In this document: positions 16,961 to 36,338 of the stretch, piece by piece
How positions within the stretch are numbered: the first letter of the stretch is position 1
Layout: each line of letters begins with the position of its first letter
Assembly (NCBI GenBank): GCA_021404565.1
Contig: JAAWWF010000047.1
Coordinates: 1 to 54,372, forward strand
Reading direction: 5' to 3'
Length of the DNA: 54,372 bases
DNA from: Roseivirga sp.
GTDB taxonomy: Bacteria > Bacteroidota > Bacteroidia > Cytophagales > Cyclobacteriaceae
The notes under the pieces: model-generated
Told to the model about the DNA's origin: nothing
The model's database searches: none
What the model saw: only the letters and a program-made list of their open reading frames with translations
Made by a program: the position numbers and the translations under genes

Positions 16961-17167
16961 TGACTTTTATTGAAAAGTAATGACACAAAACTCGGGTTTG
17001 CCCGGGGAGAATCCTTGCCAGATCGGACCAATTGCTTTTCAATTCAGCTCAGCCATAACTCTAAAAAACTCACCTGGAATCAGTGCGGGATATTCCACAG
17101 AGATAAGCGGAATTTATAGCAAGAGTTTTTTGATTACGGGCTTGTAAACGCTTTCGGACAGCTCAAC

Positions 17168-18700
17168 TCAGCTTCCACGCTCTATATTCAGTAGCTTGGT
17201 TATCAGAAGGTCTGTAGCTTCCTGACTCAGTTCTTTGTCGAATTGTACCTGTAGCTCTTCCACAAAACTCCTGGCATAAGCCTCTTTGCTTGCTCCTGCC
17301 TGCAGGTCTTTTATTTGTTTTTGAAAATCGGCCACCTCTTGAGGTAGCTCAGTGTTTTCCAGACTCTGAGTTGCGACCTGCGTTGGCGGTGTTGCTCCCA
17401 GCCATACAACGGAGCCCTCAACGTGAAAAAAAGTGGCCAATAAGTGGAAGTTTGTACCAGCGCTGACGGGGATGGTTTGGTACCTGGTTTGACCAGTAGC
17501 GCAAAAACTGTTAAAAATAACCGGAGTATTACTGCCCGGGTAAAACACCTGGGCATATAACTGACTGCTGCTGCCAACTGGTTGTCCCACATTACTCATT
17601 TGAAATAAGAAAAAACCATCGCTACTCACCGTAAAGTTGGTGGCTACTGGTTTTCCCAATGCACCTGAGTTCAGCAGGTACACAATCCTGGGATTCAGCA
17701 CTGTTGAAACTATTCCGGTTGCTTTCAGCGAGCCTTTAAAGCTGGTCGCGCCAGACACAGTAAGGTCTGTGAGTGCCGTACTGGCAAGAGTAGTGGCACC
17801 CACCACATTCAAAGCGCCCTGAAAATCAGCAGGAGCGTTTACTGTGAACTGGTTTCCGGTGATACTGGTCGTTCCCCCCTTAACAGACAAGGCGGATTGA
17901 GTAGCACCGGCCACACCAATAGTGCTACTGGTAGGAGTAAGCACCGGATTACTCACCTGAAGAGTAATGGACTGCAATAAAGTCTCATTTCCTGAGGTGG
18001 CTTTGAGTACAAAAGTTGTGTCAGTCTGAACACCGGAGGCCACAGAAAAATGGCTGCATACACCACTGTAAACAGGCTTAGGTTCATTGCCTTGGTATAA
18101 GGTATAGATGGCACCATTAGCATCCCAGGAAAGCTCAATTGGTTCTGCCAACTCGAAGGTTGTTTTAGGAATATTGGGATCTTTACTGCTATAAGCCATA
18201 AAATTGTTCAAAAAGAATGGGCGAGGTCCCTGTTTTACAATGTCATGTGAGTACTTCCGAAAGACATACTGGTTGGCCTGATTCCCTGAATGCTCAGAAA
18301 TGATCAGGCTGGCCGTCCCGACAGAGTCGTTGGTGGTTCCTGTTACCTTAAAGGTGAGGTCCTGTGAAATCTGATCAGTGCCCTGACTTTTGGGTAACAG
18401 CTTAAACTCCTGAAGAGAGACAGAGGTCTTCGAAGACTTTATCGGCTTCAGCGCTTGAATCTCCCAGCCCGAATTGGCAGACAAACTATTGGATAGGGGA
18501 GGAGAGGTGAGGAAAACAGTATCAACAGAAGAAGTGGCACCGGCCGGGATAGCTATGATGATCTCGTCCAGGTAAACCGCGGGATTTGCTTTTATCACCA
18601 CTGAGATACTTGCTCCGGAGGTGGAGGTGGTTAACGGGCCTGGACTGGTGCTAATCTCATAGGTGAGAAGCGAGGGCGGTAAAGTCTGATTATTCTTCAT
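17168..18700 (-). CDS. Cassette paralogue 5 (510 aa), divergent last copy
   Basis: The last gene of the leftward cassette. It shares with the other copies an N-terminal beta domain (LPPSLLTYEISTSPGPL, VYLDEIIIAIPAG), a second beta domain (FFLNNFMAYSSKDPNIPKT, IELSWDANGAIYTLY), the landmark NPVLTPTSS and a repetitive stalk (GALNVVGATTLASTALTDL, VSGATSFKGSLKATG). The stalk is shorter, and the distal domain ends VVWLGATPP instead of the W-[MLV]-P-M-G motif of the other four. The helical C-terminus (VADFQKQIKDL to the end) also diverges. There is no signal peptide and no T9SS domain. It is probably a homologue with a different partner. The function is unknown. Confidence 0.8.
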   Translation of the reverse strand: MKNNQTLPPSLLTYEISTSPGPLTTSTSGASISVVIKANPAVYLDEIIIAIPAGATSSVDTVFLTSPPLSNSLSANSGWEIQALKPIKSSKTSVSLQEFKLLPKSQGTDQISQDLTFKVTGTTNDSVGTASLIISEHSGNQANQYVFRKYSHDIVKQGPRPFFLNNFMAYSSKDPNIPKTTFELAEPIELSWDANGAIYTLYQGNEPKPVYSGVCSHFSVASGVQTDTTFVLKATSGNETLLQSITLQVSNPVLTPTSSTIGVAGATQSALSVKGGTTSITGNQFTVNAPADFQGALNVVGATTLASTALTDLTVSGATSFKGSLKATGIVSTVLNPRIVYLLNSGALGKPVATNFTVSSDGFFLFQMSNVGQPVGSSSQLYAQVFYPGSNTPVIFNSFCATGQTRYQTIPVSAGTNFHLLATFFHVEGSVVWLGATPPTQVATQSLENTELPQEVADFQKQIKDLQAGASKEAYARSFVEELQVQFDKELSQEATDLLITKLLNIERGS

Positions 18701-18730
18701 TATGTCGTGGCATTTTCATTGAACGAATGG

Positions 18731-19942
18731 CTACAGCAATTCTTCCAGTTTTTTGGTAAGCGCGGCATGTTTGTCCGGGTTCAGGGTTTTACCAAAGGCC
18801 TCTTGCAGGTTGGTGATAAAGGAGTTCGCCTTCTCAGGCCGCTTTAATCGTGCCTCAACCCGTGCCACATGCTCCTGGTGTATCCTTTCACCTTCAATGG
18901 CTTCTGCACTACCAGTTGGAGGGGTAAGAAAATCAAAACCGGCAGGATTTGTCGGCCCACCGCCACCCATAGGCATCCAATAAAGATAATATTGAATGAC
19001 GGTGCCTGTAGGACTGAAAGTAAATGTGGCACTGGCACCCTTGGTGAGGGGAATCACCATACCCGCAAAGAATGGGGTAGCGTAGTTATCGAAGAATTGA
19101 TATTTGGCGAAGTACTTTACTGTATCGGGGCTTCCGGGGTAGGTTACATTGGCGGTCACCTCAAAACCAGTCAAATCTGAATCGTTTTGGAATTGAGGTA
19201 TGATCGCGTAGCCTTCTGTGAATACTTTGAGTATTCTGGTTAAAGTCCCTTGTTTACCAAGGATAAGCTGGAACGGGTGTTGAGACAAGCTCACTGGGTT
19301 GATTGCGGGAACCTGAATTCCACCATTGGCATTGATGGCACCTACTGTTGTTAAGCTTGAATCAATGAATACCGGTAAATCAGACCTGAATTCCTGCGTT
19401 GACGCATCGCCATACATGCGAAAAGCGCCATGGGTATGTGTGGTGCCTGTTACATGTGCCTCCGCTGCCTTTAATATATCTACTTTAGTGGTGCTTGTGC
19501 CAGCGGCCGGGGCTTGTACCGTGAGGTCTCCTGTAATGGTTGTGGGTGTATTCACTGTGAGAGAATCTCCGACAATAGAGGACGTCCCGTCACCCACACA
19601 AAAGCTGGGCTTCCCACTCCCCGCACCACTGATAATGCTGCTGGTGGGTGTCAATTCAGGGTTTTCAATACAAATGGTCACGGATTGGTAGATGGTTTCG
19701 TCACCGCTGACTCCTTTAATCAGCAGGGTTTGGTCTTTTAGGATCTTACCGGCTGGAATAGTGAAATGGTTATCGGTGGTAGTACTGCCAGTCTCACCCA
19801 GAATTGAATTGGGGTACAAGGTGAAGCTCCCTCCGCTGGTTCGCCAGGTCAGGTAGACGGTATCTGTGGTTTTGAAAGAAAGTTTTGGGTGACCAGTGCT
19901 AATTGAGTCTACCGGAATGAGGTTATCGAAATAAAAAGACAT
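18731..19942 (-). CDS. Cassette paralogue 4 (403 aa), lacking the first N-terminal domain
   Basis: It starts MSFYFDNLIPVDSISTG, which aligns with about residue 155 of the longer copies, so the first beta domain is missing. From there it is collinear: LSFKTTDTVYLTWRTSGGSF, the landmark NPELTPTSS, a stalk (TITGDLTVQAPAAGTSTTKV and TTHTHGAFRMYGDASTQEF), NANGGIQVPAINPVSLSQ, and a distal beta domain ending YYLYWMPMGGGG. The C-terminus is helical (EGERIHQEHVARVEARL, then the FGKTLNPDKH segment). Stalk DNA is nearly identical to that of the 572-aa copy in stretches, so the two share a recent duplication or conversion. There is no signal peptide. Whether the domain loss is functional is unknown; no remnant of it is seen in the 127-bp upstream gap. 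Confidence 0.85.
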   Translation of the reverse strand: MSFYFDNLIPVDSISTGHPKLSFKTTDTVYLTWRTSGGSFTLYPNSILGETGSTTTDNHFTIPAGKILKDQTLLIKGVSGDETIYQSVTICIENPELTPTSSIISGAGSGKPSFCVGDGTSSIVGDSLTVNTPTTITGDLTVQAPAAGTSTTKVDILKAAEAHVTGTTHTHGAFRMYGDASTQEFRSDLPVFIDSSLTTVGAINANGGIQVPAINPVSLSQHPFQLILGKQGTLTRILKVFTEGYAIIPQFQNDSDLTGFEVTANVTYPGSPDTVKYFAKYQFFDNYATPFFAGMVIPLTKGASATFTFSPTGTVIQYYLYWMPMGGGGPTNPAGFDFLTPPTGSAEAIEGERIHQEHVARVEARLKRPEKANSFITNLQEAFGKTLNPDKHAALTKKLEELL

Positions 19943-20070
19943 GGTTTCTGATTTTAAATGGGTAGTTATGATGAATAGGTTGGCTAAGTGAAAAGGGCTT
20001 TGGATCTGGTGTCAAACCTTTTATGAGACCTGTCCTGGCTTCACATTCAGCCGTTATTTCACCTTATGAT

Positions 20071-21789
20071 CTATAGTAGCTCCTCCAGGTTTTGTGTGAG
20101 TAACTCATGAGCCTCCGGAGTTAATGACTCTTCAAAGGCTTCTTCCAAATCCCCGATAAAGCTTTTAACATCTTCTGTTCGCCTTAAAAGTTTTTCTGCT
20201 TGTAACATATGTTCCTCGTGAAATTTTTCACCTTCCAGGGCCTGAGAAGTCTTAGGGCGAAAGTAGGTCAACTCATAACTGGGCGAAGCATTGGGGCCAG
20301 CGCCCATAGGCAGCCAAAAGAGGTCAAAATTCAGGTATTGGCCCGGGATACTAACCAGGAACTTAGGGCTTATTGTGAGCGTAACAGAGGTTCCTTGAGT
20401 GATAGGGATCATCCGCGTGGTCCCGTGCCATTTGCCAAATGGATTCTCTGTATAAAAATATTCATAGGACACGGATTCAGTACTGCCCGGATACCAGACC
20501 TGTGCCCTGATTTTAAAGCTGAACAAAGCATAATGAGCTCCGATGTCAGGGATCACCAAGTGGCCTTGCGTGAACATTTTAAGTTCCGCGACAATGGAGA
20601 AATCATACGTCAATTTGGTGGAGATGGGCTTTATGGGAGGTTGAGAAAGGCTGACCGGATTTAGGGCAGGAACATTAATCCCACCGTTGGCATTGATGAC
20701 ACCGACTGTTGTTAAACCCGAATTAAACCATACTGGTAAATCAGATGCGAATTCTTGTGTTGCGGCATCGCCATACATGCGAAAATTGCCATGGGTATGT
20801 GTAGTACCTGCTACATCTGCATTGGTTGCCGATAATGTGTCTACATGGGTAGTGCTTGTACCAGCGGTTGGTGCTTGTACCGCCAGATCTCCGTTAATCA
20901 CAGTGGGTGCGTCTATGCTAAATTGATCTCCGTTAATGGTGGCTTGGCCATTGATGATGGACTGGCCATTGGCTACACTAAAGCTGGTCTTTCCTGTACC
21001 CGCCCCACCGATCAAGCTACTGGTGGGAGTCAAATCGGGGTCCTCAATGTTAATGAGCAATGAACGATAAAATGTATCAGTTCCTTTAGTAGCCTTGATC
21101 AGGATGGTTTGATCTTTTGTGATCTTTCCGGCCGGAATTGTGATATGCGTATTGGTCGTAGGGTTTCCGGTAGTGAGAAGATCTTTCGGAAAGAGCTCAT
21201 AAGAAGTTCCGTTGCTATCCCAGCTCAGGTAAATTTCATCGCTCGTTTTAAAGGAAACCTTGGGGGTGTCCGGGTCATTTGAATCAAAGGCAACCAGATT
21301 GTTAAGGTAAAAGGGTATGGGTTCCGATTTGGTCACGGAGAACTCTGATTGTCGGGGGGTATAACTTCCTGCCTGGCGGCCTGATTCTTCACTGATCAAT
21401 ATTTGAACAGTGCCTTTGTCGGTATTGGTGGTGCCGGTGATGGTTAGGTGCAGGTCTTCGGTGATTTGGTTGATGTTGCTGTTTTTGGGTTTGATGATGA
21501 ATACTTTATACGGCAGGTCGTCAAATCTTCTGTCCTCTCCCGGACTGACCACCCACTTCGTGTCGGGCGTCAAATGCTGAGTCAGTGCCGGGTCAGTCAA
21601 AAAGAGCGTATCAGCCGCACTGCTTGAAGAAGCCGGAACCTGTATATAGATCTCATCGAGGTACACATCTGTGTTTTTCTTGATGGTAATCAGGAGTTTA
21701 CTGTCCTTTGCATTGGTATACAAGGGATCCGGATCCGTACTGACCTCATAGGTCAATAAGTCTGGCGGGAAGGATTCATTTTTAGACAT
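20071..21789 (-). CDS. Cassette paralogue 3 (572 aa)
   Basis: Full architecture. Domain 1 (about 1-155) starts SFPPDLLTYEVSTDPDPLY and includes VYLDEIYIQVPASS. Domain 2 (about 155-255) includes PFYLNNLVAFDSNDPDTPK and IYLSWDSNGTSYELFPKDLL. The stalk after DPDLTPTSS contains short hydrophobic turns such as SIINGQATINGDQFSI and TVINGDLAVQAPTAG. The distal beta domain ends FDLFWLPMGAGPN. The helical tail is EGEKFHEEHMLQAEKLL, followed by ESLTPEAHELLTQNLEELL. No signal peptide, no T9SS domain. The modular build of head, repetitive shaft and helical foot suggests a fibre or oligomerising subunit. This is an inference from pattern; no named family is recognised. Confidence 0.85.
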   Translation of the reverse strand: MSKNESFPPDLLTYEVSTDPDPLYTNAKDSKLLITIKKNTDVYLDEIYIQVPASSSSAADTLFLTDPALTQHLTPDTKWVVSPGEDRRFDDLPYKVFIIKPKNSNINQITEDLHLTITGTTNTDKGTVQILISEESGRQAGSYTPRQSEFSVTKSEPIPFYLNNLVAFDSNDPDTPKVSFKTSDEIYLSWDSNGTSYELFPKDLLTTGNPTTNTHITIPAGKITKDQTILIKATKGTDTFYRSLLINIEDPDLTPTSSLIGGAGTGKTSFSVANGQSIINGQATINGDQFSIDAPTVINGDLAVQAPTAGTSTTHVDTLSATNADVAGTTHTHGNFRMYGDAATQEFASDLPVWFNSGLTTVGVINANGGINVPALNPVSLSQPPIKPISTKLTYDFSIVAELKMFTQGHLVIPDIGAHYALFSFKIRAQVWYPGSTESVSYEYFYTENPFGKWHGTTRMIPITQGTSVTLTISPKFLVSIPGQYLNFDLFWLPMGAGPNASPSYELTYFRPKTSQALEGEKFHEEHMLQAEKLLRRTEDVKSFIGDLEEAFEESLTPEAHELLTQNLEELL

Positions 21790-21810
21790 GTCTGTTTTGG
21801 TTGAAGAGGT

Positions 21811-23634
21811 TTACAATAGGGATTCCAGGTCTTTGACCAACTCGCTTCGCATTTCTTCATCGAGTGATTGACCAAAGGCCTTTTCCAGCTTCCGGATGTA
21901 TGACCTCACCTTTTCGGGTTTTTGACGGAGTTTCTCTATTTGTGCATCATGTTTTCTCCGTACCTTAAGAAACTCCTCTGGTAGGGACTCAGTATCTGCG
22001 TTCGGGAACCATTGGTAGCTTTGCCCACCATCGCCACCAGCGCCCATCGGCACCCAATAAACGTAATACTTAGAAGTAGCTGGAACCGAAAAAAAGGTTT
22101 CTACCGAAAAGGTCAGTTGGGTTTGGGCACTTTGGGGTAATGGAATAATCAATGAATTGGTCTGGAGCCAGTCACCGTTATCATTTGGAAAAAGAGACTG
22201 CCCGTACTCGATGTTGTAACCAAGCCCGGGGTATGCCACCAATACTGTGGAGAACAGCGCAGAAAAAACGCCACGATCAAAAATGTTTGGTAAAATCAGG
22301 TATCCGTCAGTAAGGGCATTAAAATGGCCTGAAATGGTCGTATTACTGGCAATAAACTGGACAGGCGTCTTTATCAAACCCACAGGCCTGTTCCCTGCTA
22401 CAATTCCGCCATTGGCCTGTATGGAGCCATTAACAGTGAGTTGCTCGCTTACCTGCAAATTTTTCTTAAAATCTGCATCTAGATCGGCCTCAATCTTATC
22501 GCCATCCGAACCTCTGGTTTTCATGGTAATTGGGCCAGACATGCCAACAGGGCCATTCATGGTTGTCTCGCCAACTATGAGGGTGTCGCCCAGTTGGCTG
22601 TCTTTATTGACAAATAACTTGTCCACGTGGGTTGTGCTTTCTCCCGATTCATCGGCTTTTACCCAAAGGTCTCCGGTAATGGCCGTTCCATGCGTTACTT
22701 CGAGCTTAGCTGTATTGGAATCATTCATTGATACTACCCCGAATCCGGTTGTGTCAAAAACCACGGCAGGGGCCTCAACGAATAGCGAGTCCCCGGCAAT
22801 GACAGCGTTGCCATTATTCACCTGTAAGCTATTCTCACCTGGTATTCCACTGATCAGGCTTTTTGTGGGCGTAAGTATCGGGTTCTCAATGCAAATGTTC
22901 AAAGATTGGTAGAGGGTTTTATCTCCATCAGTAGCTCTGATCACGATCGGTTGGTCTTTGAAAATGACTCCGGCAGGAATGGTAATATGGGTTTCTGTGG
23001 TAGTGCCATTTTCTAGTGAAACCAGGTTTTTCGGAAAGAGCTCGTAAGAAGCCCCGTTGCTATCCCAATTCAGGTAAATTTCATCGCTGGTTTTAAAAGA
23101 GAGCTTAGGGGTATCGGGATCCTTTGGATCAAAGGAAATGAGGTTATTGAGGTAGAAGGGCATGGCTGCTGATTTGGTTACTGGAAATTTAGTTTCGTGA
23201 TATTCATATTGGTCTGGCGATTTTCCTGAATGCTCTCCAATCACCACCTCGACCGTGCCTTTGTCGGCATTGGAGGTTCCGGTGATGGTCAGGTGCAGGT
23301 CTTCCGTGATTTGGTTGGTGCTATCTTTAGGCTTGACAGAGAACTGTATCACCGGCACGTTGCCGGATTTGTTGGTGCTTACTTCAAGGAGCTGCCAGTC
23401 TGTATCAGGCGTCATATGGTAAGTCAGTGCCGGATCAGTCAAAAAAAGTGTATCTGCCGAACTGACAGAGTCGGCCGGAACCTCGATAAAGATCTCATTG
23501 AGGTACACCTCTGTGTTTTTCCCGATCGTGATCAGGAGCTTACTGTCCGGGTCATTGATGTACAAAGGGTCCGGGTCGGTACTCACCTTATAGGTCAGCA
23601 GGTTGTGGGGTAAAGTCTGTTTATTTTGTGTCAT
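21811..23634 (-). CDS. Cassette paralogue 2 (607 aa)
   Basis: Full architecture with the longest stalk. Domains 1 and 2 are close to those of the 602-aa copy (LLTYKVSTDPDPLYINDPDS, IYLNWDSNGASYELFPKNLV). The landmark is NPILTPTKSLISG. The stalk has an extra part around DTTGFGVVSMNDSNTAKLEV and GDTLIVGETTMNGPVGMSG, then EQLTVNGSIQANGG. The distal beta domain ends YYVYWVPMGAGGD. The C-terminal helix set carries RRKHDAQIEKL and AFGQSLDEEMRSELVKDLE. No signal peptide. It lies 21 bp upstream of the 572-aa gene and 27 bp downstream of the 602-aa gene, so it is probably co-transcribed with both. Confidence 0.85.
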   Translation of the reverse strand: MTQNKQTLPHNLLTYKVSTDPDPLYINDPDSKLLITIGKNTEVYLNEIFIEVPADSVSSADTLFLTDPALTYHMTPDTDWQLLEVSTNKSGNVPVIQFSVKPKDSTNQITEDLHLTITGTSNADKGTVEVVIGEHSGKSPDQYEYHETKFPVTKSAAMPFYLNNLISFDPKDPDTPKLSFKTSDEIYLNWDSNGASYELFPKNLVSLENGTTTETHITIPAGVIFKDQPIVIRATDGDKTLYQSLNICIENPILTPTKSLISGIPGENSLQVNNGNAVIAGDSLFVEAPAVVFDTTGFGVVSMNDSNTAKLEVTHGTAITGDLWVKADESGESTTHVDKLFVNKDSQLGDTLIVGETTMNGPVGMSGPITMKTRGSDGDKIEADLDADFKKNLQVSEQLTVNGSIQANGGIVAGNRPVGLIKTPVQFIASNTTISGHFNALTDGYLILPNIFDRGVFSALFSTVLVAYPGLGYNIEYGQSLFPNDNGDWLQTNSLIIPLPQSAQTQLTFSVETFFSVPATSKYYVYWVPMGAGGDGGQSYQWFPNADTESLPEEFLKVRRKHDAQIEKLRQKPEKVRSYIRKLEKAFGQSLDEEMRSELVKDLESLL

Positions 23635-23661
23635 TGAATAGGGTTTACGTGGAAGATCGGG

Positions 23662-25470
23662 CTAAAGTAGTGCTTCCAGGCTTTTGGCAAGGGCGGCATG
23701 CTGGTCCGGGCTGAGGGTTTGGCCAAATGCCTCTTGCAGGTCATTGATAAAGGATAGAGCTTTTTCAGGACGTTTGTTGCGTTCTTCAACCCTTGCCAGA
23801 TGTTCTTGGTGATACTTGTCTCCTTCACGATTCTCGGCCGTTTTTTTAGTGTGAGGTTCGGTAAAACTGTAGCCTGATTCGTTACCGGTTCCACCTCCTC
23901 CCATGGGCATCCAGAATACGTGATAGTTCAGGTATCGTCCTGGCAGAGCGGTGAAAGTAATACTAAAAGTAAAATCAACGGTAGCTCCGGGGTTCAGCGG
24001 GATGATCAGGTTGGGGTTGGGCGGGAGCTGAGTTGGTGCATCGTTCAAACCCCATTGGTAGGTGTATTGTTGGGGATCATGTTGGCCTTTGTATAGTACT
24101 GACGTTTTTAACTCAAAGCCACTCAAGCCTTGATTGTCAGTTATTTCGGGTATCATCAGGTAACCTGAGGTTTGTACAGTGAGCTTAGCCACGTAGGTAC
24201 CGCTTTCTTTTTTTAATTCCGTAATAAGCTGAACAGGTGATTTACAAAGCGTGACGGGTGACGTACCCGCAATATTGAACTGGCCATTAGCGGTGAGTGT
24301 ATCGGCTACCTCCAGGGTTTTTTCTGCTAATACAGGGACATTGGCTTTAAATGTATCAGTGCTGCCAGAGCTGTAATTGTTAATTTCGACCGGGCCGAGT
24401 ATTGTTGCTTTACCGTTAATGGAGGTTGCTGCAAGATCACATTTTCCGAAGGTAGTCAGCTCATTCAAGATGGTCTTACTATTGCCGGATTCGTCTTTCC
24501 CTACATAGAGGTTTCCGGTAATTCTGACTTGATCAGTTAATTCAAACTTAGCGGTCCTTTTATCATTCCTTGAGACTATGCCAAACTCATTGGTATCAAA
24601 CACTGTATTGGAAGTAACGAAGAGCGCATCTCCATCAATCACAGCGTTGCCGTTATTCACTTGTAAGCTATTCTCACCTGGTTTTCCACTGATCAGGCTT
24701 TTGGTGGGGGTAAGCACCGGGTTTTCAATGCAGATATTCAAAGTTTGGTAGAGCGTTTTGTCCCCGTCTGTCGCCTTGATCACAACGGTTTGGTCTCTGG
24801 GGACATTGCCAGCCGGAATGGTGATATGCGTATTGGTCGTAGGGTTTCCTTTAGTGACCAGGTCTTTCGGAAAGAGCTCGTATGAAGTTCCATTACTATC
24901 CCAGCTGAGGTGGATTTCATCTGTGGTTTTAAAAGAGAGCTTAGGGGTGTCAGGGTCATGCGGGTCGAAGGAAAGGAAACTATGTAAATGGAAAGGCATG
25001 GGTTCGGATTTTTTTACTGAAAATTTTGATTCGCGAAATGCATAATGGCCCGAAGAGGTACCTGAATGCTCTCCAATCACAATCTGAACCGTGCCTTTGT
25101 CGGTATTGGTGGTACCGGTGATAGTTACATGCAGGTCTTCGGTGATTTGATTGGCTTCCCCTTTAGGACTGATGGTAAAAGTCTGGGTTGGCGGTGTTTC
25201 CGGTTTTATAATGATGTTCGGGCCCTTAATTTCCCAGTGGTTTTCAGGTGTCATCTGGTAAGTCAGTGGCGGGTCAGTCAAAAAAAGGGTATCGGCCGAA
25301 CTGCCAGAGTCGGCCGGAACCTCGATAAAGATCTTATCGAGGTACACCGCTGTGTTTTTCTCGATCTTGATCAGGAGCTTACTGTCCGGATCATTGATAT
25401 ACAAAGGGTCCGGGTCGGTACTGACCTTATAGGTCAATAAGCCAGGCGGTAAGGGTTCATTTTTGGACAT
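23662..25470 (-). CDS. Cassette paralogue 1 (602 aa)
   Basis: First of the five tandem copies. Domain 1 (about 1-155) has LLTYKVSTDPDPLYINDPDS, VYLDKIFIEVPADSGSSAD and ITEDLHVTITGTTNTDKGTV. Domain 2 (about 155-255) has PFHLHSFLSFDPHDPDTPK and IHLSWDSNGTSYELF. The landmark is NPVLTPTKSLISG. The stalk spans about 265-420 (TSINGKATILGPVEINN). The distal beta domain ends YHVFWMPMGGGG, and the helical tail is EGDKYHQEHLARVEERNK with AFGQTLSPDQHAALAKSLE. No signal peptide or T9SS domain. A 124-bp gap separates it from the 1296-aa gene and contains a hairpin, so a separate promoter for the paralogue block is possible. Confidence 0.85.
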   Translation of the reverse strand: MSKNEPLPPGLLTYKVSTDPDPLYINDPDSKLLIKIEKNTAVYLDKIFIEVPADSGSSADTLFLTDPPLTYQMTPENHWEIKGPNIIIKPETPPTQTFTISPKGEANQITEDLHVTITGTTNTDKGTVQIVIGEHSGTSSGHYAFRESKFSVKKSEPMPFHLHSFLSFDPHDPDTPKLSFKTTDEIHLSWDSNGTSYELFPKDLVTKGNPTTNTHITIPAGNVPRDQTVVIKATDGDKTLYQTLNICIENPVLTPTKSLISGKPGENSLQVNNGNAVIDGDALFVTSNTVFDTNEFGIVSRNDKRTAKFELTDQVRITGNLYVGKDESGNSKTILNELTTFGKCDLAATSINGKATILGPVEINNYSSGSTDTFKANVPVLAEKTLEVADTLTANGQFNIAGTSPVTLCKSPVQLITELKKESGTYVAKLTVQTSGYLMIPEITDNQGLSGFELKTSVLYKGQHDPQQYTYQWGLNDAPTQLPPNPNLIIPLNPGATVDFTFSITFTALPGRYLNYHVFWMPMGGGGTGNESGYSFTEPHTKKTAENREGDKYHQEHLARVEERNKRPEKALSFINDLQEAFGQTLSPDQHAALAKSLEALL

Positions 25471-25579
25471 ATTTCTAGTGTTTTGAATGCATAAAAAGCC
25501 AGGCCAGTCATAAATGTAAAAGCCGCACTGCCATGTAAACAGGATATTGAATCCTTATTGACACGGCATAAAATGTTAG

Positions 25580-25598
25580 ATAGGCTTTATGAGCCTAT
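25580..25598 (-). terminator. Small hairpin over the stop codon of the 1296-aa gene
   Basis: ATAGGC (25580-25585) pairs with GCCTAT (25593-25598) around a 7-nt loop. The stop TAG lies inside the stem. Only 6 bp and no clear T tract, so it is at best an attenuating or mRNA-end stem between the large genes and the paralogue block. Confidence 0.3.
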
Positions 25599-28500: not shown

Positions 28501-29485
28501 GTGAGGTAAAGGCATCGATACTCGTATTGGCAATTGACAACTTGATGTCCGCGGCATTGTTAACGGCATCCAACTGGTCAGGGCTGTTGGGTGAAGTATC
28601 GTCCTTGTTCCAGGCCAGATTGAAGGCCATGCCCGTGTACAAGGATAACCCAGGTGCTCCGGAGGGCTGGTTACCAGCAACCTTCCAATTCAAGGCACTC
28701 AGCACATCAGCAATGGCCTTGCCTGAGACCGTAAGGATATCTTCGTTGTTATTGGCATACCAGCCCGTCACAAAATAGCTGAGAGAAGCTTCGGTGGGTG
28801 CATCAGAGAGGTCATCGTAAAAAGAAAATATATTCTCATTATGCGGGTAATAAGCGCTGAAGGCTACATTGCCCGGAGATACAGCGGTCAGAAATCCAGA
28901 CAGGTCAGCGGCATTCTCTGTCCAGGAGTTGGCCTCAAAAGCTACCCCAACCTGCTGAAGGTAGCCCTTGGTGGTGTCTACCTCTGTGGGGGTAGCCGCT
29001 TTACGGTTGCTTTCAGGGGACCCGCTCCAGGCTGTGACTACGCTGCCATCGACCACAAAATCCGAACCGGCTCCCGAGTTATTAGGGCAATCTCCTTCTA
29101 CCACCCAGGCCTTCAATACATTGGAGCCGCTGATTGAATTAATGGTGGACACTGTCAATGAAGCCGTGCGTGAAACCCGAACCACCAACCAGCGATTGGG
29201 TACCAGGGGAGCATCATGCACATTGCCTGTACTGGAAGTGCGCAGTGAACGTGGGAGCTCCCAGTGCAGGTAGGCGCCCATATCCACACCCGCTTCGGCC
29301 ACAGTACCCCCTTTGGGTTCAGGACTTGAGAAGCTGCCATTGCCGGAACTACCAGCCAGGTTCTGGTATTGAAATTTCCATTGGAGAAAGTTGGTATTCG
29401 TTCCTCCGGATTTCGGAGCAGCGGAAAGTGCATTGTTGACCAAAAGCACGTCTAATTCTACCGGGACATAAAGTGAAGAGGACAT
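25595..29485 (-). CDS. 1296-aa cassette protein with VPNRWLVVR motif
   Basis: Very large protein without signal peptide, starting MSSSLYVPVELDVLLVN. Recognisable points: YLHWELPRSLR, LVPNRWLVVRVSR (about residues 90-102), a long helical part (about 380-560) with LNENQAKLDAALSNLYSLQW and WWKLGFFN, QPRYWMSNNPNIVVSGIEP, and MSLWSQGWKPLYLEWEVSY. A region follows with FTKVVFYDKFGRLLKLIGGD and PFLLPPRLLQPARLNLEM. The VPNRW and RYW...NP.VVVSG-type motifs recall large uncharacterised proteins of actinobacteria and myxobacteria that, from memory, occur near DUF6603 proteins. No enzymatic motif is seen. It is 9 bp behind the 783-aa gene and is surely in the same transcript. Function unknown. Confidence 0.8.
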   Translation of the reverse strand: MSSSLYVPVELDVLLVNNALSAAPKSGGTNTNFLQWKFQYQNLAGSSGNGSFSSPEPKGGTVAEAGVDMGAYLHWELPRSLRTSSTGNVHDAPLVPNRWLVVRVSRTASLTVSTINSISGSNVLKAWVVEGDCPNNSGAGSDFVVDGSVVTAWSGSPESNRKAATPTEVDTTKGYLQQVGVAFEANSWTENAADLSGFLTAVSPGNVAFSAYYPHNENIFSFYDDLSDAPTEASLSYFVTGWYANNNEDILTVSGKAIADVLSALNWKVAGNQPSGAPGLSLYTGMAFNLAWNKDDTSPNSPDQLDAVNNAADIKLSIANTSIDAFTSLVADQLTNTAGYAKTNNISSDTIISLFRAFQYDFLDKLNQPNGEALLAEKNVSQWFSSKYGGTRWVVVNAQADQGGTLKYSDVPHPAWLVTLNENQAKLDAALSNLYSLQWDLNAAWWKLGFFNTNLNPFGNDTGYSDNTTLKANLATATSNVVAQLAKVAKYLALVPTPMADTTKTAQENYQAGVEAFATSNSIGSGLALKAITQPRYWMSNNPNIVVSGIEPASISNPNSNLTVRIDSQVLTAFTDGTTNIDASALTSLTGLLTNSGAFPAGVASMFAEFTLLDPANAGQIATATGADETTLSAFMNGQMTTPTPGSYTGTLPINSMSLWSQGWKPLYLEWEVSYQPIPYQYNGTYNWQFNGTDYELSGNMTSGMISDIKTDAKIPPSSTSGRSLLSPHLAATFGTRLNTFLNEFGGDAPDDAILEALYDEIKSIDNWKYLSQELIGFNDLLTGRSPLLFRRPVNEAPSSPSGVSYAELIGYVGTTPAASYITPEYAQGLVGSVPDVSMTSTQVNSSIPFHAIRSGQAYFTKVVFYDKFGRLLKLIGGDGLSSDTSYLAQIDKAMSGTKSTFTPNIASPFLLPPRLLQPARLNLEMVDQKDNSKVLGLDADVNPVCGWVIPNHIDKSLLIFGPTGTNLGELQLTDPSAASGATVTWLPPIDNNTVTSIATDITPNDPELGAFLTSIVSMSTAEFEQLLFTIDSTLWTTQPLGTRSDKDMTVLIGRPLALLRVQLQFVLDGNPIANCDWAPKVAGEADSKIPDFTTNNFSIRLGDMATREDGVMGYFASSSVGGTTDYSVFNSVAAPDPSVTQAYVKQIGGADANYIQLPFDGTTTEMVTLLVDPRAGIHATTGILPVTDIKIPDQFISAALEQIEITFKTGPLLTRVSKAPTSDKQSPTYTDGINFLPLAEKHGKWSWWESAVASVGADPTWTGYDLLNPGTQAELPDAPATLREGYLKFKTDLDS

Positions 29486-29494
29486 TTTTTTACT

Positions 29495-31846
29495 TTAAGA
29501 GGTTTGTGAGGTGAAGACCAGGCCTTCAGCCGCCTTGATCATTTGTATAGAAAAAGTGGAAGGGCTCAGGTCGCTGTTGGCCGGTGTATTGCCCAGGGCG
29601 GTTAAACCCGATACCAGGGTTTGGACCAATCCGCTTGAATCGGCAGGGTCAATATTTAAAGTCAGGCTGGTGGCCGAGCGCATACACATGGCACTCTGTT
29701 GGGTCAGGTCCCTGATTTGTTTAAGGCCGCTGTTGCCAGCACCCAACTGATCTCCCAGAGAGCCGGCAGTGATGGTATCACGTAAGACTACATTGCCATT
29801 GTCATCCACACCAAATCCCAGACTTTCTGAGGGTTGACTGATCTCGATATTATCAGGTACTCCGTCAAAAATGCAAAGCAACACGCTGGGCGACAGGCAC
29901 TCCATTCTGAGTATTTTCAATGTAGTGTCAGCGGGAGTAGCTGCCTTTGGTTTAATAACCAGGTTGGGCCAGCCTGTGACCAGTGCAGAGCGTATTAAAA
30001 CTCCACTCATGATGGCGGGTGGTGTATGGGTGGCACCTGGAGTAACGCCTTCAGAAGCATCGGTTGAAATGGCCAGGGACTGTAAAGCTGCCTCCTGCAA
30101 CATCCCCCTGGTCAGTTCTGTAAAGAGTGCCGTTTTGCTCGATTCCTGCCCCAGGCTGACGGCACCGTCCACCGCAGCATTCAACCAGTTTTGGTCTATA
30201 TAGAAGAAACGGATCGACTCTGGTGGTAGCATGCGGGAATCGGGCACCAGGCACTCAAAAGGCAGAGGTTTCAGAAGCATGAGGTCCGACAGCCATTCTG
30301 CAATAACCGCAAATTCTGCGACTATCAGTTTATGCAGCGCCTCAATGGTACCGGGTGAGGTCATAAAGGATTTGGCATCATCCACTACGTTAGAAGAGGA
30401 TGGAGTAGTTTGTGCAGGGTCGTATGGCGTAGGAGTCGGATTGATCTTGAAATCTTTGATGAGTTGCGGGGTGAGCATCTTCAGAAACTCAGACTGTATG
30501 GTGGGCAGGTTGCCCGAAGTCGTGAGTGTCTCAATATCTGTGGCACTGAAACTATCTGACGCCAGGTATTCCTCCATTTTATCGAGCAGGGTCAGGGCCT
30601 TGTCGCGATAGGCCAGGATATTTTTGCCAAAGCTTTTATCAGCCAGGGCGGCTTCCCGGCCTGCCTGCCAGGCGGCAGCCAGCGACATGTCGAACACTCC
30701 ATTCGTTTTATCATAGATAATGGCCGCATCGGAGGTGAAATAGGGGCTTGAAATACCGCTGTTCTCCGTCAGGATGGGAGCAAGTGGCCCCCGGTACCAG
30801 GCAAAAGTATCTTCCCCGCTACGCGTATGATAGGCCAGGGGGGCATAACCATCGGCAATTCTTTGTTGAACCGTGGAATACCCTGCTGAGCCCGTGTCCT
30901 GGGTGGGAGCAGGCAGGCGCAACCAAAGCTTGGAGGAGTCCACTGTAGTATTGTTACCGGGGGTGGTTTCTTCTTCGTTCACCAGATTGGTGGCCAGGGC
31001 TCTAAAGTCCTCAGACACATTAGGCAAAGACAGAAATGACCAGCTGGCCAGTGAAAGCAGAGACACCTGTGTCATGCTGCTGGGCCAGGTCGGTGAGCCT
31101 GTCAGATAATCTTCCATACCCTCCAGTGACACCAGGTGCACTATATTCTTAATGGATTTTGGTGAGGTTGTCCCATTGTTTAAAGGTGCATTGGCAAAGG
31201 TATTGGATGCGATCACCGAGAAAAGGCCTTGCTCATCAATGCCCAGTTCAGCACGTCCTCCGGTATTAACCTGTCTCACATGGGCGAGATAAGGTAGCTC
31301 GGTCACGTAAGGCACCTGTGCGGTAAAGGTGTCTGTGCTCATTACGATATACTCACAGGGAGTTGAGGTTTGAATATCGGCATCGGGAGTGATGGAGGGC
31401 ACCAGAGTGGGAGAGGCCTGAGTTTGAAAGTCGTTCAGGGTACCGGAGATGGACCCGGTCTTTTTATTCCCCCCAATCAATTGATCACCACTGAAAACCA
31501 TCAGAGCAAGCCATGGGGTCACCCTGGTGGCAGGAGCAGCCAGGGCCCGCTCCCAGGGCAACATGGGCTCTTTTAATACAATATGGGGCAGTACCTCCCC
31601 ATAAATGCCGGTGCTGCCATCAGGAGGGTATTGATTAATGATCGACTCCTTATTCATGGCTATCTGCGGAGCGGCCACTGTAAAGCGCTGGTGGGTGTTA
31701 AAGCTTTGTGAGGTGCCCCCTGATAAAGTCTGGGTCACATTGACTTTATAGTTTCCACCCTTCAGGTTGGGCACATAGTTGTCATACAGCTGAATGTCTC
31801 CCGCAGCTACACTGGCTTTTATACTCGTTGTGGTTGGCAGAGTCAT
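29495..31846 (-). CDS. 783-aa cassette protein, unknown function
   Basis: Start chosen at ATG 31846 (MTLPTTTSIKASVAAGDIQL), 10 bp after the DUF6603-like stop. A start at 31954 would overlap that gene by about 100 bp. The N-terminal beta domain reads DNYVPNLKGGNYKVNVTQTL, then RFTVAAPQIAM. Then PHIVLKEPMLPWERALAAP, TPWLALMVFSGDQL, YIVMSTDTFTAQVPYVTELP and YLAHVRQVNTGG. The middle has APLAYHTRSGEDTFAWYRGPL. A C-terminal part of about 250 residues starts near LVPDSRMLPPESIRFFYID. No signal peptide, no membrane segment and no known catalytic motif. The strict linkage with the 1296-aa and DUF6603-like proteins suggests that the three form one complex. Confidence 0.8.
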   Translation of the reverse strand: MTLPTTTSIKASVAAGDIQLYDNYVPNLKGGNYKVNVTQTLSGGTSQSFNTHQRFTVAAPQIAMNKESIINQYPPDGSTGIYGEVLPHIVLKEPMLPWERALAAPATRVTPWLALMVFSGDQLIGGNKKTGSISGTLNDFQTQASPTLVPSITPDADIQTSTPCEYIVMSTDTFTAQVPYVTELPYLAHVRQVNTGGRAELGIDEQGLFSVIASNTFANAPLNNGTTSPKSIKNIVHLVSLEGMEDYLTGSPTWPSSMTQVSLLSLASWSFLSLPNVSEDFRALATNLVNEEETTPGNNTTVDSSKLWLRLPAPTQDTGSAGYSTVQQRIADGYAPLAYHTRSGEDTFAWYRGPLAPILTENSGISSPYFTSDAAIIYDKTNGVFDMSLAAAWQAGREAALADKSFGKNILAYRDKALTLLDKMEEYLASDSFSATDIETLTTSGNLPTIQSEFLKMLTPQLIKDFKINPTPTPYDPAQTTPSSSNVVDDAKSFMTSPGTIEALHKLIVAEFAVIAEWLSDLMLLKPLPFECLVPDSRMLPPESIRFFYIDQNWLNAAVDGAVSLGQESSKTALFTELTRGMLQEAALQSLAISTDASEGVTPGATHTPPAIMSGVLIRSALVTGWPNLVIKPKAATPADTTLKILRMECLSPSVLLCIFDGVPDNIEISQPSESLGFGVDDNGNVVLRDTITAGSLGDQLGAGNSGLKQIRDLTQQSAMCMRSATSLTLNIDPADSSGLVQTLVSGLTALGNTPANSDLSPSTFSIQMIKAAEGLVFTSQTS

Positions 31847-31856
31847 GAATAGTCGA

Positions 31857-34800
31857 TTAAGAGATTTCCATTGGGTTTTCGGTAAAAAGGCTATCGGCAT
31901 TGGCCTGCATATTGCCCAGGGCACTGTAAGTGCCTGTGTACAGGCCATTGGCATTTAGAATGCTCACCAGGCTTTGCCGGTTCGAGGCCGGGGTTCCGGA
32001 AGCAATGCCTGAGCTGGTGCTGGCAATATCGGCAACGGTAGTGCTACTGGCCGTTCCCTGGAAGTCAGTGCTTGCACTGCCGGTAGTGATGCCGTATACC
32101 AGCGGGTTTTGGGCAACACCCTTTTCGATGTATTCCTCGCTGATGGCCGTCACTTTGATCGGACCCAGGTCGTCAGAGCAGGTGGGCGCAGGGGCCGCCA
32201 GTGACAGGCCCACATAATGCGTGTTCTGAACCGGGGGTTGTGGTTTGGATGGGTTCTGAACGTAACTATCGCTATTGTCTTTGAATGGGGCACCCCAGAG
32301 ATTTTCCGGTACACTGGTTTCGTTACTGCCAATGGCCCAGGTAGACAGGTCATGATCTTTACCCTCCGGGTGTGCTGTAGTATATTCCGTTACGCTCACA
32401 TTGTGTGTGGAGGTAACACCCTGGTTGGTGCCGTTGGAAACACCGCCATCCAGGAACATGGGCCGGATGCTCATATTAGATTTATCCGGTACGTTGGGTA
32501 CGGCTGTGTTGGCAGCGGTGGGGTTGACCTTATTGGCGGGGACCACACTTTGAGTGCTGAAGGAAAAGGTGCCGGCCCGGGTGATCCACAGGGGTTCAAT
32601 GTTGTCCGTGCTTTGCACGTCTTCTACAAAAGCATTGCCGTTTCCAGAGTCCTGGTTGTTATGAATAACAGAACCGGTCGTATTGTCCCAGTGCAGATTC
32701 TTGGTGATTCCATGGTTGGGTACCACTTTACATACCACCTTGTTACCTGGCAGTAGCTTTTGACTGAACTCGCTCCAGGAGAGGGCCGTGTTATTGTCTT
32801 CTATAATGCCCGCTATGATGTCTTCGGAAGACCCGAAGCCGATCGTCACGGTAACGATCACGATATGTACTCTCACTTTACCCCCCAAAGGCGAGCCCCA
32901 GATCTGGATGGCCGCACCCAGCGATACTGAGACCGTAGCATGGCAAAATAGCAGGTCCAGTCTTACCGATGCTCCAATGCTTACGCTGATATCCCCAATA
33001 AAAGAGAATGGATGCCAGGCTACCAGGAGATTGATCACTGCATCGAACCAGGCTTTGACAGGGCCTGCCTGATACAGTACATTCAGGCTGCCACCCGCCA
33101 TACCAAAAGAAGGTGTCATGGCAAAATAACAGTCCCCTGTAATGGAAATATTACTGGCCACCTGCCAATTAAAGCCTAACCTTGATACTTGAGGGTAGTA
33201 AGCCGGTGCCGGAAAGGCCGGGTGATACCCGCCCACGGTCAGTACAAACTCCCCGGAATGCGGATTGTCGCCAAACCAGACGTAGAAGGCAAATCCACCG
33301 GTAACATGACAATCCTTGGTGAGCACAAAGGAATTGGGCGTGAGGCTGGCCCCGGCTGTGAAATAACCGTCATGCGGTGCCAATACTGCCTCCAGGGTCA
33401 ATTCCAGGTAGACGAATGAATCTGCCGTATTTCCTCCCTCCGGTACGGGTAGGGTAATGGAAGCCATACCCAGGATATTAAATATCAGGTCTTTCCCGAA
33501 TTCGACTGTGAAGAGCAACTGCCCCTGAATAACTTCGAAACTGTTGAATTTAACCCCAGCGGCCAGCCAGTAATCTCCCTGTGTAGGAGCTACCCAGGTC
33601 ACCGTCTCTCCGCTAACCGGTCCGGGCGCCTGTCCTTGCAATACGGCCAGGGTATCAGAGGCCTTACCATCAGAACTGCTGCTTGTAGCGGCACCAATGG
33701 CTAAAAGTGGGAAATCGGCCACCTCTCCAAGGGTAGGGGTGGTGAGTGACATGTTGTAGCCTAAGCCACCCATCAGGCCTTCTACAATAAACCAGGGCGG
33801 TCCGCCCAGTATCTCATCTACCTCTACAAATAGGAAGAAAGAGGGCAAGTCACCATTTGATAATTCTGCATAAGAAGCAATGGCCGATAAGCCAAACTCT
33901 TCGGCCTGTACACTCAGGTCACCTGCATACTCGAATTTCGTACCGGAAGGCGGATTGGGTACGTGGTCAATGCCTCCTTCAATTCTCAGAGGAGGCTTGT
34001 TATAATCGAAGCTTAGTCCGGAAAGGCTAAATTCCGGGGTGAATGCGGTGAGTTCAGAACCAAAGGAGAGACCGATCAATGTGGCAGTCAGAGGCCCAAT
34101 GGTGAATCCTCCTGTCAGGGTAATGTCGAGTACTTTGTTGGTGTAAGAAGCCGAGATACTGTCTAAAAATACAGAACCAAGTTTCTTCTGTACTGGTGTA
34201 GACCCTTTGGCTGCTTTGTCAGGACTGTCGGCAGGGTTTTGTTCAGCACCATTGCCTTTTCCTCCACTTACAGGGTATTCCTGTACCGGCAAGACCAGGT
34301 TGTTACTCTCCTCCATGATGGTGAAGTCAAGCACAAACATGATCCCTGGTGTAATGGTATCCGGTTTGCTGCTTGCACTGGAAGTAATGCCCGAAGGATC
34401 TTTGGAGGTGATGGTCAGGAATAACTCGTTGAACCCAAGTAAGCCGCCCAGTTCGCTACCGACTACGGGTAAGCTGGAAAAAAGGTCCCAGCTGTCGGTA
34501 CTTTGCAGTTCGCCTACCATCACAAATTCCCATTTACTCGTGGTGGAAGAATAGGCAGCATCAATGGTTATGGTGACCGTATAATTACTGCCCAGGTCTA
34601 CTGTGGCTGAAACAGAAAAGGTTTTGGCATCGGAATCATAAGTGACTGTTGGGCTTTCCAGTGTAATATCAGGCAATATGCTCAGGTCCAGGCCAAAGTC
34701 TGAAAAGAACCCCTTGATCAGGTCGGACAAGGAAATGCTGGTCGCGGAAGCTGTCAGGTTAAGTCCGGTATCACCGGCCGTTTCAGACAAGGTAAGGTCA

Positions 34801-36338
34801 AAGGTAAAAGTGACTCCCTCTACCGGAAAGCTACCACTGATCTTCTGTGAGTAAGTTGAACCGGTTTTGCCAAAGGTGAGTGTGAAGCTGACCTGGAATG
34901 TTGTGCCTGCTATCTCAAGACTTAGACTACCATCTGTGGTACAGGTGTACTTATCACTGACCGGCTCTACGTCTATACTGGTATTGGAAAAGCTAAGGTC
35001 CTGGAGCGGACTGGGCACCACAAGAGTTTCTCCATTGGCTGTGGCAATGTCATTAATAATCGTGGTCAGGTCAAAGCTTTGTGCATCGCTCCCTGTAATA
35101 GATTCGATGGCCCAACCCTTAGCACCCTTGGTGATAGACATGGTAAAATCCACAGGGGCGGTAAAGATACTGGTTGGGTCCACATTGGCCTGTGCTGTAA
35201 CGTTTATAGTAGCCGTATCGGTGGCCGCACCGGGCGTAGGGCTTGCCCAATCGGCCTTCAGGCTGAACTGGGTAAAGGTCAATGGCCCCAGTGGGATCGA
35301 TGAGTTTGGTACTTGTCCAATTGAAAAACTGACAGAGGTAACCTTGTTGGTGGCACTTGGGGTCAAAGTAACATCAATGCTATTGAGTGTGAGATTGCCG
35401 GTGTCAGATTTAAATGCATTCAGAATGTCAGAGGGTACAAAGTCAGAAAAGTTGGTGCCGGAAGGTAAGAGACTACCTACTGAGACAGAGGCCAGGTTGT
35501 TCAGCGTGGGAACAAAGTTGGAAGACGGCCCGGCTGATAACGCGATCGTATTATCTGAGTTGCTCACATCGATGGTGAAGACCAGGTCGGCTGTGGTGAT
35601 GATGATATCAAGCGATATGGGCTGTTCTTGGGTAGTCGGATCAGGTGCGCCAATGCTGAGGCTCAGGTCTATTTCTTTGATAGTAAGCGTGAGTCCACCA
35701 GGTAGTGTCAGGGAACTGATCGAAAGATCAGCAGTGAGGTCCATCACCGGATAGGGGTTAGATACACTGCTGACATCACCTGAAAGTGTGAGTGAACCAG
35801 AAGGGGCCTGGTTTCCCAAAATATAACTCAATGGGTTAGGATCACCTGGGGTAATGGTACTGCCATAATTCAGCCCTTCCACCAGCTTAATGGAGGGGTC
35901 GTTGGTACCTAAAGAGTAACTGTCTTGGGCGTTGTTGGTATATACAAAATAGGTGCCCGTAAAGGTGAATGCATTAAAAGGAAAGGCATTTGGTAGTGAA
36001 AAACCGGTGGAGAATGACCAGGCAGCGGGCATGCTGAATTCCAGGGTGTAATCCAGTCCATTTTGTGCTGCATTTAAACCAAATACCATTTTTACTGTAG
36101 CCGGGGTGGCCGAACTAAACAAGGTGAGTGAGGCGGCTGTAATGGTCAATGTATCTCCATTTGGACCTAAGGCTACATTCCCGGTTTGAATATCACTGAT
36201 GGTTAACGTTCCGGCCAGGCCCAGGGCGGTCTGTATGGCGGTCACCTCTGCCTGACTTAGGCCCATGGCGGTACTAAAGCTGAGCTGACTGTTGGAAATT
36301 TGACTTTGTACTTTGGCAATGAGTGAGTTCGTAGCCAT
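31857..36338 (-). CDS. 1493-aa DUF6603-like giant protein
   Basis: First gene of the cassette. The N-terminal 680 residues are beta-rich repeats about 150-200 aa long, each with strands of alternating hydrophobic residues (for example LTLSGDVSSVSNPYPVMDLT and SLTLPGGLTLTIKEIDLSL). A low-complexity linker (GGKGNGAEQNPADSPDKAAK) follows at about 690-720. The next part has the DUF6603 hallmarks: PPWFIVEGLMGGLGYNMSL, VTWVAPTQGDYWLAAGVKF, GGFAFYVWFGDNPHSGEFVL, VGGYHPAFPAPAYYPQVSRL and HVTGGFA. A Ser/Thr/Asn-rich C-terminal tail follows, with SIRPMFLDGGVSN and VPENLWGAPF. DUF6603 occurs in bacteria and some fungi with unknown function; the assignment is from memory of the motif pattern. No signal peptide or T9SS domain. 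Confidence 0.75.
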   Translation of the reverse strand: MATNSLIAKVQSQISNSQLSFSTAMGLSQAEVTAIQTALGLAGTLTISDIQTGNVALGPNGDTLTITAASLTLFSSATPATVKMVFGLNAAQNGLDYTLEFSMPAAWSFSTGFSLPNAFPFNAFTFTGTYFVYTNNAQDSYSLGTNDPSIKLVEGLNYGSTITPGDPNPLSYILGNQAPSGSLTLSGDVSSVSNPYPVMDLTADLSISSLTLPGGLTLTIKEIDLSLSIGAPDPTTQEQPISLDIIITTADLVFTIDVSNSDNTIALSAGPSSNFVPTLNNLASVSVGSLLPSGTNFSDFVPSDILNAFKSDTGNLTLNSIDVTLTPSATNKVTSVSFSIGQVPNSSIPLGPLTFTQFSLKADWASPTPGAATDTATINVTAQANVDPTSIFTAPVDFTMSITKGAKGWAIESITGSDAQSFDLTTIINDIATANGETLVVPSPLQDLSFSNTSIDVEPVSDKYTCTTDGSLSLEIAGTTFQVSFTLTFGKTGSTYSQKISGSFPVEGVTFTFDLTLSETAGDTGLNLTASATSISLSDLIKGFFSDFGLDLSILPDITLESPTVTYDSDAKTFSVSATVDLGSNYTVTITIDAAYSSTTSKWEFVMVGELQSTDSWDLFSSLPVVGSELGGLLGFNELFLTITSKDPSGITSSASSKPDTITPGIMFVLDFTIMEESNNLVLPVQEYPVSGGKGNGAEQNPADSPDKAAKGSTPVQKKLGSVFLDSISASYTNKVLDITLTGGFTIGPLTATLIGLSFGSELTAFTPEFSLSGLSFDYNKPPLRIEGGIDHVPNPPSGTKFEYAGDLSVQAEEFGLSAIASYAELSNGDLPSFFLFVEVDEILGGPPWFIVEGLMGGLGYNMSLTTPTLGEVADFPLLAIGAATSSSSDGKASDTLAVLQGQAPGPVSGETVTWVAPTQGDYWLAAGVKFNSFEVIQGQLLFTVEFGKDLIFNILGMASITLPVPEGGNTADSFVYLELTLEAVLAPHDGYFTAGASLTPNSFVLTKDCHVTGGFAFYVWFGDNPHSGEFVLTVGGYHPAFPAPAYYPQVSRLGFNWQVASNISITGDCYFAMTPSFGMAGGSLNVLYQAGPVKAWFDAVINLLVAWHPFSFIGDISVSIGASVRLDLLFCHATVSVSLGAAIQIWGSPLGGKVRVHIVIVTVTIGFGSSEDIIAGIIEDNNTALSWSEFSQKLLPGNKVVCKVVPNHGITKNLHWDNTTGSVIHNNQDSGNGNAFVEDVQSTDNIEPLWITRAGTFSFSTQSVVPANKVNPTAANTAVPNVPDKSNMSIRPMFLDGGVSNGTNQGVTSTHNVSVTEYTTAHPEGKDHDLSTWAIGSNETSVPENLWGAPFKDNSDSYVQNPSKPQPPVQNTHYVGLSLAAPAPTCSDDLGPIKVTAISEEYIEKGVAQNPLVYGITTGSASTDFQGTASSTTVADIASTSSGIASGTPASNRQSLVSILNANGLYTGTYSALGNMQANADSLFTENPMEIS

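Follow-up and report, generated by a model that had tools for sequence, protein, structure and literature searches.

A recurrent cassette of giant DUF6603-associated proteins in Roseivirga sp. and distant bacteria

The described systems closest to the locus reported here are extracellular contractile injection systems, polymorphic and Tc-type toxins, and defence systems with metallo-beta-lactamase (MBL) effectors. The locus is an eight-gene cassette in a 54,372-nucleotide stretch of Roseivirga sp. DNA (the window; assembly GCA_021404565.1, contig JAAWWF010000047.1, positions 1 to 54,372), made up of the gene of a DUF6603 protein (D), the next two genes (S and B), and five paralogue genes (p1 to p5). 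Extracellular contractile injection systems share with it and its relatives fibre-like proteins (here p), variable enzymes beside conserved structural genes, and the absence of signal peptides, but the eight proteins gave no match to a sheath, tube, spike, or baseplate protein in Pfam, NCBIfam, or PHROGs, and no phage tail protein convincingly matched the models of S or D. Polymorphic and Tc-type toxins are alike in combining conserved, very large proteins with an interchangeable enzyme; however, the enzyme of the cassette is a separate gene before D, not a C-terminal tip, and Pfam found no RHS/YD repeat, SpvB, or Tc-family domain in the eight proteins. The likeness to defence MBL effectors (Lamassu LmuA, Avs1a, and DRT RTasMBL) concerns the MBL protein of one related locus, and the eight window proteins had no PADLOC match of weight (best, p3, E 0.022, 10.5 bits).

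The initial annotation knew of no described system with this gene set, and we likewise found no characterised assembly in searches of Pfam, NCBIfam, PHROGs, PADLOC, PDB sequences, and the literature. D belongs to DUF6603 (PF20248) by the curated cut-off, a family that Pfam lists as of unknown function, and no paper naming DUF6603 or PF20248 was found in the open-licence literature, a search that most subscription journals lie outside. The cassette almost certainly represents one conserved, mobile, undescribed system, and a gene set this large, conserved, and widespread without a described function is rare.

All eight genes are present on the minus strand at 17168 to 36338, with the lengths first assigned to them. 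D (31857..36338, 1493 aa) is the only one of the eight proteins with a named domain by the Pfam gathering score, DUF6603 scoring 462 bits at residues 716-1263 against a cut-off of 27. S (29495..31846) is read from an internal ATG as 783 aa; its longest open reading frame (ORF), of 819 aa, overlaps the end of D. B (25595..29485) encodes 1296 aa. None of S, B, and p1-p5 has a Pfam match over the cut-off, none of the eight proteins matched NCBIfam at E up to 1, and PHROGs gave nothing better than E 0.15. The last five genes are p1 (23662..25470), p2 (21811..23634), p3 (20071..21789), the shorter p4 (18731..19942), which lacks the first N-terminal domain of the other p proteins, and the most diverged p5 (17168..18700). 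Their annotation as five homologues holds: identity to p1 is 54% for p2, 48% for p3, and 38-46% over the aligned parts of p4 and p5.

The genes are separated by 10 (D-S), 9 (S-B), 124 (B-p1), 27 (p1-p2), 21 (p2-p3), 128 (p3-p4), and 30 bp (p4-p5). The 9-10 bp spacing of the first three genes is thus as annotated, and it is this spacing that suggests the proposed single transcript. The window's genome (8.57 Mb) contains one DUF6603 match, and a search of it with p1 returned only the five p genes of this cassette. The multi-component system proposed at the outset stands, with its unit corrected from eight genes to four families, D, S, B, and p, since the last five genes are repeats of p. As for the beta-fibre composition ascribed to all eight proteins, Ser, Thr, and Asn make up 23-28% of them, versus 11-27% of 21 other window ORFs; a fibre character was retained for p only, D being predicted as an amphipathic beta meander and S as a mixed alpha/beta protein.

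The cassette is more than a chance assembly, because it recurs in other genomes. A protein search with B listed 117 proteins at E up to 0.001, the window's own B included, named from Chitinophaga, Myxococcota, Streptomyces, and Paenibacillus, among others, and two of them from the fungi Glonium stellatum and Magnaporthiopsis poae. With an alignment of 24 B relatives, we obtained 293 stretches encoding a relative and kept the best 80 as loci, on whose stop-to-stop ORFs profiles of D, S, B, and p, started from the window queries and iterated over the same 80 loci, were run. S was present in 80/80 loci and D in 75/80, the DNA of the other five starting within S or shortly before B. The three genes followed the order D-S-B on one strand in all 75 loci holding them, and a p gene came after B in every one of the 72 loci with at least 1.5 kb left (76/80 overall, the other four being too short), at a median distance of 69 bp between profile envelopes (range, 15-715) and with a best p score of at least 128 bits in each of the 72. 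Because the profiles were iterated on these loci, these counts are not mutually independent. D-S-B-p is therefore the form of the window and of every B-seeded locus with room for it, and the co-occurrence in other genomes, proposed as a check on the cassette, is borne out.

An independent look at 19 loci from 18 genomes, taken around DUF6603 matches (G165, below the cut-off, was left out), gave a graded picture. Eighteen of these loci are new, since L114 is apparently the same contig as the B-seeded L017. An S-type gene followed D in all 19: the S profile matched in 11 (at least 184 bits, best piece) and reached 18-24 bits in 4, and in the remaining 4 the gene at the place of S aligned with those weak S genes at 32-39% identity. 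B was found in nine loci, directly after S in seven and elsewhere in the locus in two; profile searches did not find it in L097, L119, or eight loci of a second lineage. A p gene was recognised in four (L114-L117). Co-occurrence in these more distant loci thus extends to D and S and only partly to B and p, so D-S is the widest core. In the second lineage (L095, L120-L123, L125-L127), D measures about 1140-1200 aa except in L126 (2207 aa), S-prime is about 940-1180 aa long, and the third protein has about 1500-2000 aa; three of the operons stand behind a subtilase gene. S and S-prime are homologous; B has no detectable homology to the third gene of this lineage, and the third protein of L122 is without a Pfam match.

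In the window, the cassette sits in an insertion (17045..37005) flanked by the genes of an M16 peptidase and a DUF1330 protein. G009, the nearest of the relatives searched (87% identity between its M16 peptidase and that of the window), has no DUF6603 match in a profile search. Its locus L129 aligns with the window above 37005 (edge at L129:7763) and below 17045 (edge at L129:7939) at 74-76% DNA identity, the two edges lying 176 bp apart. Such an empty site indicates one insertion of about 20 kb, or else a clean loss in the relative. DUF6603 was present in 5/59 relatives (the window's genome included), 17/395 Bacteroidota genomes (16 over the cut-off), and 0/14 control genomes, a patchy spread that favours transfer over loss. 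No integrase was found among the window ORFs scanned, which cover part of the total, and a look at the two end stretches of the insertion revealed no direct repeats in them. The G+C content is highest in B, S, and most of D (0.51-0.525); it is 0.46-0.47 in the p genes, 0.44-0.46 in the left flank, and 0.45-0.48 in the right flank, as far as 42 kb. Some genomes carry two cassettes, such as Streptomyces hiroshimensis (L047 and L054) and S. klenkii, whose L078 has an MBL gene and whose L091 has a propeller gene.

The best clue to the function of the cassette is the variable enzyme gene found in relatives. Among the 72 loci with 1.2 kb upstream of D, 28 had an extra gene on the same strand, belonging to seven unrelated kinds (representatives were assigned with Pfam, the others with profiles). 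It ended within 60 bp of the open frame of D or overlapped the stop-to-stop frame of D in 27 of the 28, and ended 532 bp before it in L057. Ten of these genes encode an MBL fold (L022 passes PF00753 and L036 falls just below), with the motifs HxDxDH and HHG in nine, the tenth (L040) being cut by the locus end. Six are TAGT-like glycosyltransferases (that of L014, at 20.9 bits and E 3.7e-4, falls short of the Pfam cut-off, 27.5), and six are EEP-like, all with the motifs WN[IL], GD[FY]N, and SDH; those of L019 and L030 have no Pfam match, and the relative in L094 passes PF03372. Three encode hemopexin/YVTN proteins (L039, which passes the hemopexin cut-off, L051, and L073), and a DUF4135 protein, a trypsin, and a pyridoxal phosphate (PLP) decarboxylase occur in one locus each, all over the Pfam cut-offs. 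A CAP-like protein in L055, without a Pfam match, was left uncounted.

The same place was occupied in DUF6603-seeded loci by EEP (L094), PhoD (L095), DUF4135 (L097, and L114 as in L017), MBL (L116 and L118), and subtilase proteins (L121 by Pfam, L123 and L125 by eye), plus unnamed proteins. The pattern of polymorphic cargo, i.e., unrelated enzymes at one position beside a conserved core, thus runs across 28/72 loci. It is absent from the other 44, where no extra gene was recognised, and from the window's copy, where the 5′ part of the insertion (36339..37005, 667 bp) contains no ORF of 100 aa or more. The enzyme is therefore an accessory of the core, not a part of it. We also noted that hemopexin/YVTN genes stand between two p genes in L042, L045, L050, L054, L058, and L091, and more weakly in L053, so that this accessory can occupy two positions. 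In PADLOC, the MBL protein of L022 (L022:1120-2703) matched LmuA (46.8 bits), RTasMBL (37.4), and Avs1a (33.1), models which we take to be nuclease-type effectors; accessory enzymes may be common to the cassette and defence systems.

In an alignment of 29 p proteins, we delimited by hand a base (238-269 residues; median, 248), then a shaft (13-162), and then a head. Some of the 29 also have a C-terminal tail of about 31 residues, helical in appearance by eye. The bases of window p1-p3 are 62-68% identical, their shafts 28-51%, and their heads 28-35%. With a constant base, a variable shaft, and a diverged head, the p proteins may be read as a docking base with changing tips. Their profile had a single PDB match at E up to 1, a weak one (E 0.0081) in the shaft to a chimera of OBP gp146 and T4 gp5, which are beta-helical spikes or fibres; the base and head are without a named relative in the searches made. 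Each of the five window p proteins closes with a tail of about 35 residues, similar in all of them and also seen in Chitinophaga and some actinobacterial p proteins and absent from many of Streptomyces, which is possibly a docking tag.

D residues 300-1493 were predicted by AlphaFold2 (pLDDT 78.2, pTM 0.54) to form mostly antiparallel beta strands, 29 of the 50 predicted strands being amphipathic. In this model, residues of about 750-1174 resemble the beta belt of ApoB100 and outer-membrane porins in a long, antiparallel, partly amphipathic beta meander, but D is only 6-11% identical to them among the matches listed. Since D has no signal-like N-terminus and its family occurs in Gram-positive bacteria, it is hardly a resident outer-membrane barrel. 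Larger D frames of 3227 aa (L117:3238-12918) and 2207 aa (L126:9128-15748) were also seen, and the added N-terminal part of the latter shows by eye beta repeats of about 90 residues that recall bridge-like lipid-transfer proteins. The S model is confident, mixed alpha/beta, and includes a helical domain; it had no convincing PDB or viral match, which suggests an unexplored structure.

Export was judged from N-terminal hydropathy, under a rule that recognises as signal-like six presumed exported proteins of the window. None of the eight window proteins has a signal-like N-terminus by this rule, nor do 74 S genes and 104 p genes of relatives, Gram-positive hosts included. The absence of a Sec signal, in contrast to the exported proteins elsewhere in the window, was therefore correctly annotated by this measure, and so, as far as NCBIfam goes, was that of a type IX secretion system (T9SS) sorting domain, as none of the eight proteins matched the NCBIfam library, which presumably includes these domains. 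The claim that membrane helices are lacking holds by hydropathy overall, but S has one stretch of 19 residues from residue 507 with a mean Kyte-Doolittle value of 1.81, inside the predicted helical domain, and this value exceeds the usual membrane threshold.

We tentatively read the cassette as encoding a fibre-guided, membrane-engaging complex with an optional, swappable enzyme cargo, a possible rather than a probable interpretation in which assembly and release are putative. S and B would form a body that keeps D soluble in the producer, and p fibres would dock to this body via their constant base while their heads choose the target. Upon contact, the amphipathic D sheet might engage or enter the target membrane, and the enzyme, where present, would be cargo carried to or through it. 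The window's copy, with five fibres and no enzyme gene, would act via D alone or with a cargo encoded elsewhere. With no signal-like N-terminus in any window part, its proteins would have to leave the cell through lysis or by an unknown route; the data do not separate lysis, an unknown secretion route, and an intracellular lattice, the three options raised initially. A more far-reaching version is rather doubtful: D-S-B-p would be a modular particle for delivering proteins, of a new class without relation to phage tails or known toxin complexes. Fibres would pick the target, the giant beta sheet of D would open or cross the membrane, and one interchangeable enzyme could be delivered; the class would have spread horizontally through many bacterial phyla, and relatives occurring as single proteins would be those of D in an archaeon and of B in two fungi. 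Several observations weigh against the fibre-guided reading. The window cassette and 44/72 loci do without a recognised extra gene, so cargo is not essential, and some extra genes (PLP decarboxylase and DUF4135) are atypical as toxins. In the 19 DUF6603-seeded loci, p was recognised in as few as 4 and B in 9, and L094, L096, and L124, with B and at least 2 kb beyond it, had no p at E up to 10, an unmatched 771-aa gene standing at the p place of L096. The likeness of D to porins is loose (root mean square deviation, 12.6 Å over 266 residues; pTM 0.54; Foldseek TM-scores of at most 0.14), S lacks a match to any known component of a shell, translocon, or toxin, and the likeness of B was judged from sequence alone. 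Among 29 p proteins, one matched a PHROG virion structural family (E 0.0013) and one matched bactofilin (E 0.0088). When any start was allowed, 7/80 B genes were flagged as signal-like; we tentatively take these as false because the N-terminus of B is itself rather hydrophobic.

Alternatively, D, S, B, and p may assemble in the cytoplasm into a lattice or compartment that stays inside the cell and may house one enzyme. This is unlikely but deserves weight, as it would fit the absence of signal-like N-termini from the window proteins, 74/74 S, and 104/104 p, Gram-positive hosts included, and partner enzymes such as DUF4135 and PLP decarboxylase, which would need cytosolic substrates; however, the divergence and multiplication of the p heads and a phage tail-collar protein between B and D in L128 (39.7 bits; cut-off, 24) point to outside binding partners, and 44/72 loci have no recognised enzyme. 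The predicted resemblance to ApoB100 would also suit a lipid particle, in which D forms an ApoB-like amphipathic beta belt wrapping or transporting lipid, S and B act as its caps, and p proteins serve for display, but we consider it improbable. Somewhat less probable again is an extracellular adhesive matrix of large surface fibres exported by an unknown route with matrix-modifying enzyme partners: the Ser/Thr/Asn-rich composition, the fibre-like p, and the hemopexin/YVTN genes between p genes in six loci agree with it, whereas no export signal was seen in relatives' S and p (7/80 B being flagged), and a single D, S, and B with many p fit a defined complex better. Least probable of all, and very much so, is that the cassette supplies a payload or accessory to a contractile injection system whose genes lie elsewhere in the genome. 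The phage sheath family PF04984 (E up to 0.001) was found in 9/17 DUF6603-positive versus 79/378 negative Bacteroidota (hand count; Fisher p 0.0046, kinship uncorrected), in 7/15 (p 0.026) when the window's genome and one sub-cut-off DUF6603 match are removed, in 4/5 positive versus 18/54 negative relatives, and in 12/16 hand-picked cassette-bearing genomes. Because kinship is uncorrected and the family includes prophage sheaths, this association is a lead only. Moreover, the window's genome has two sheath loci (G000:C15:328208-328888, 40.8 bits, over the cut-off; G000:C81:468358-468642, 24.8 bits, below it) in which the cassette profiles had no match, and a DUF6603 operon occurs without a sheath match in G010, G091, G123, and G222.

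Should the cassette deliver enzymes, it would be a delivery machine of a new kind; should it form a scaffold or a lipid particle, it would be a bacterial assembly of a new kind. Hosts of the cassette include Bacteroidota, Actinomycetota, Paenibacillus, SAR324, and Acidobacteria, and its presence in the soil genera Chitinophaga, Streptomyces, Frankia, and Paenibacillus makes the system directly testable. The DUF6603 part of D had 2251 matching proteins among 7999 scored candidates. DUF6603 proteins were also named from the archaeon Methanoculleus and from Gimesia, Roseibium, and Herpetosiphonaceae, a wider range than that of the loci fetched here.

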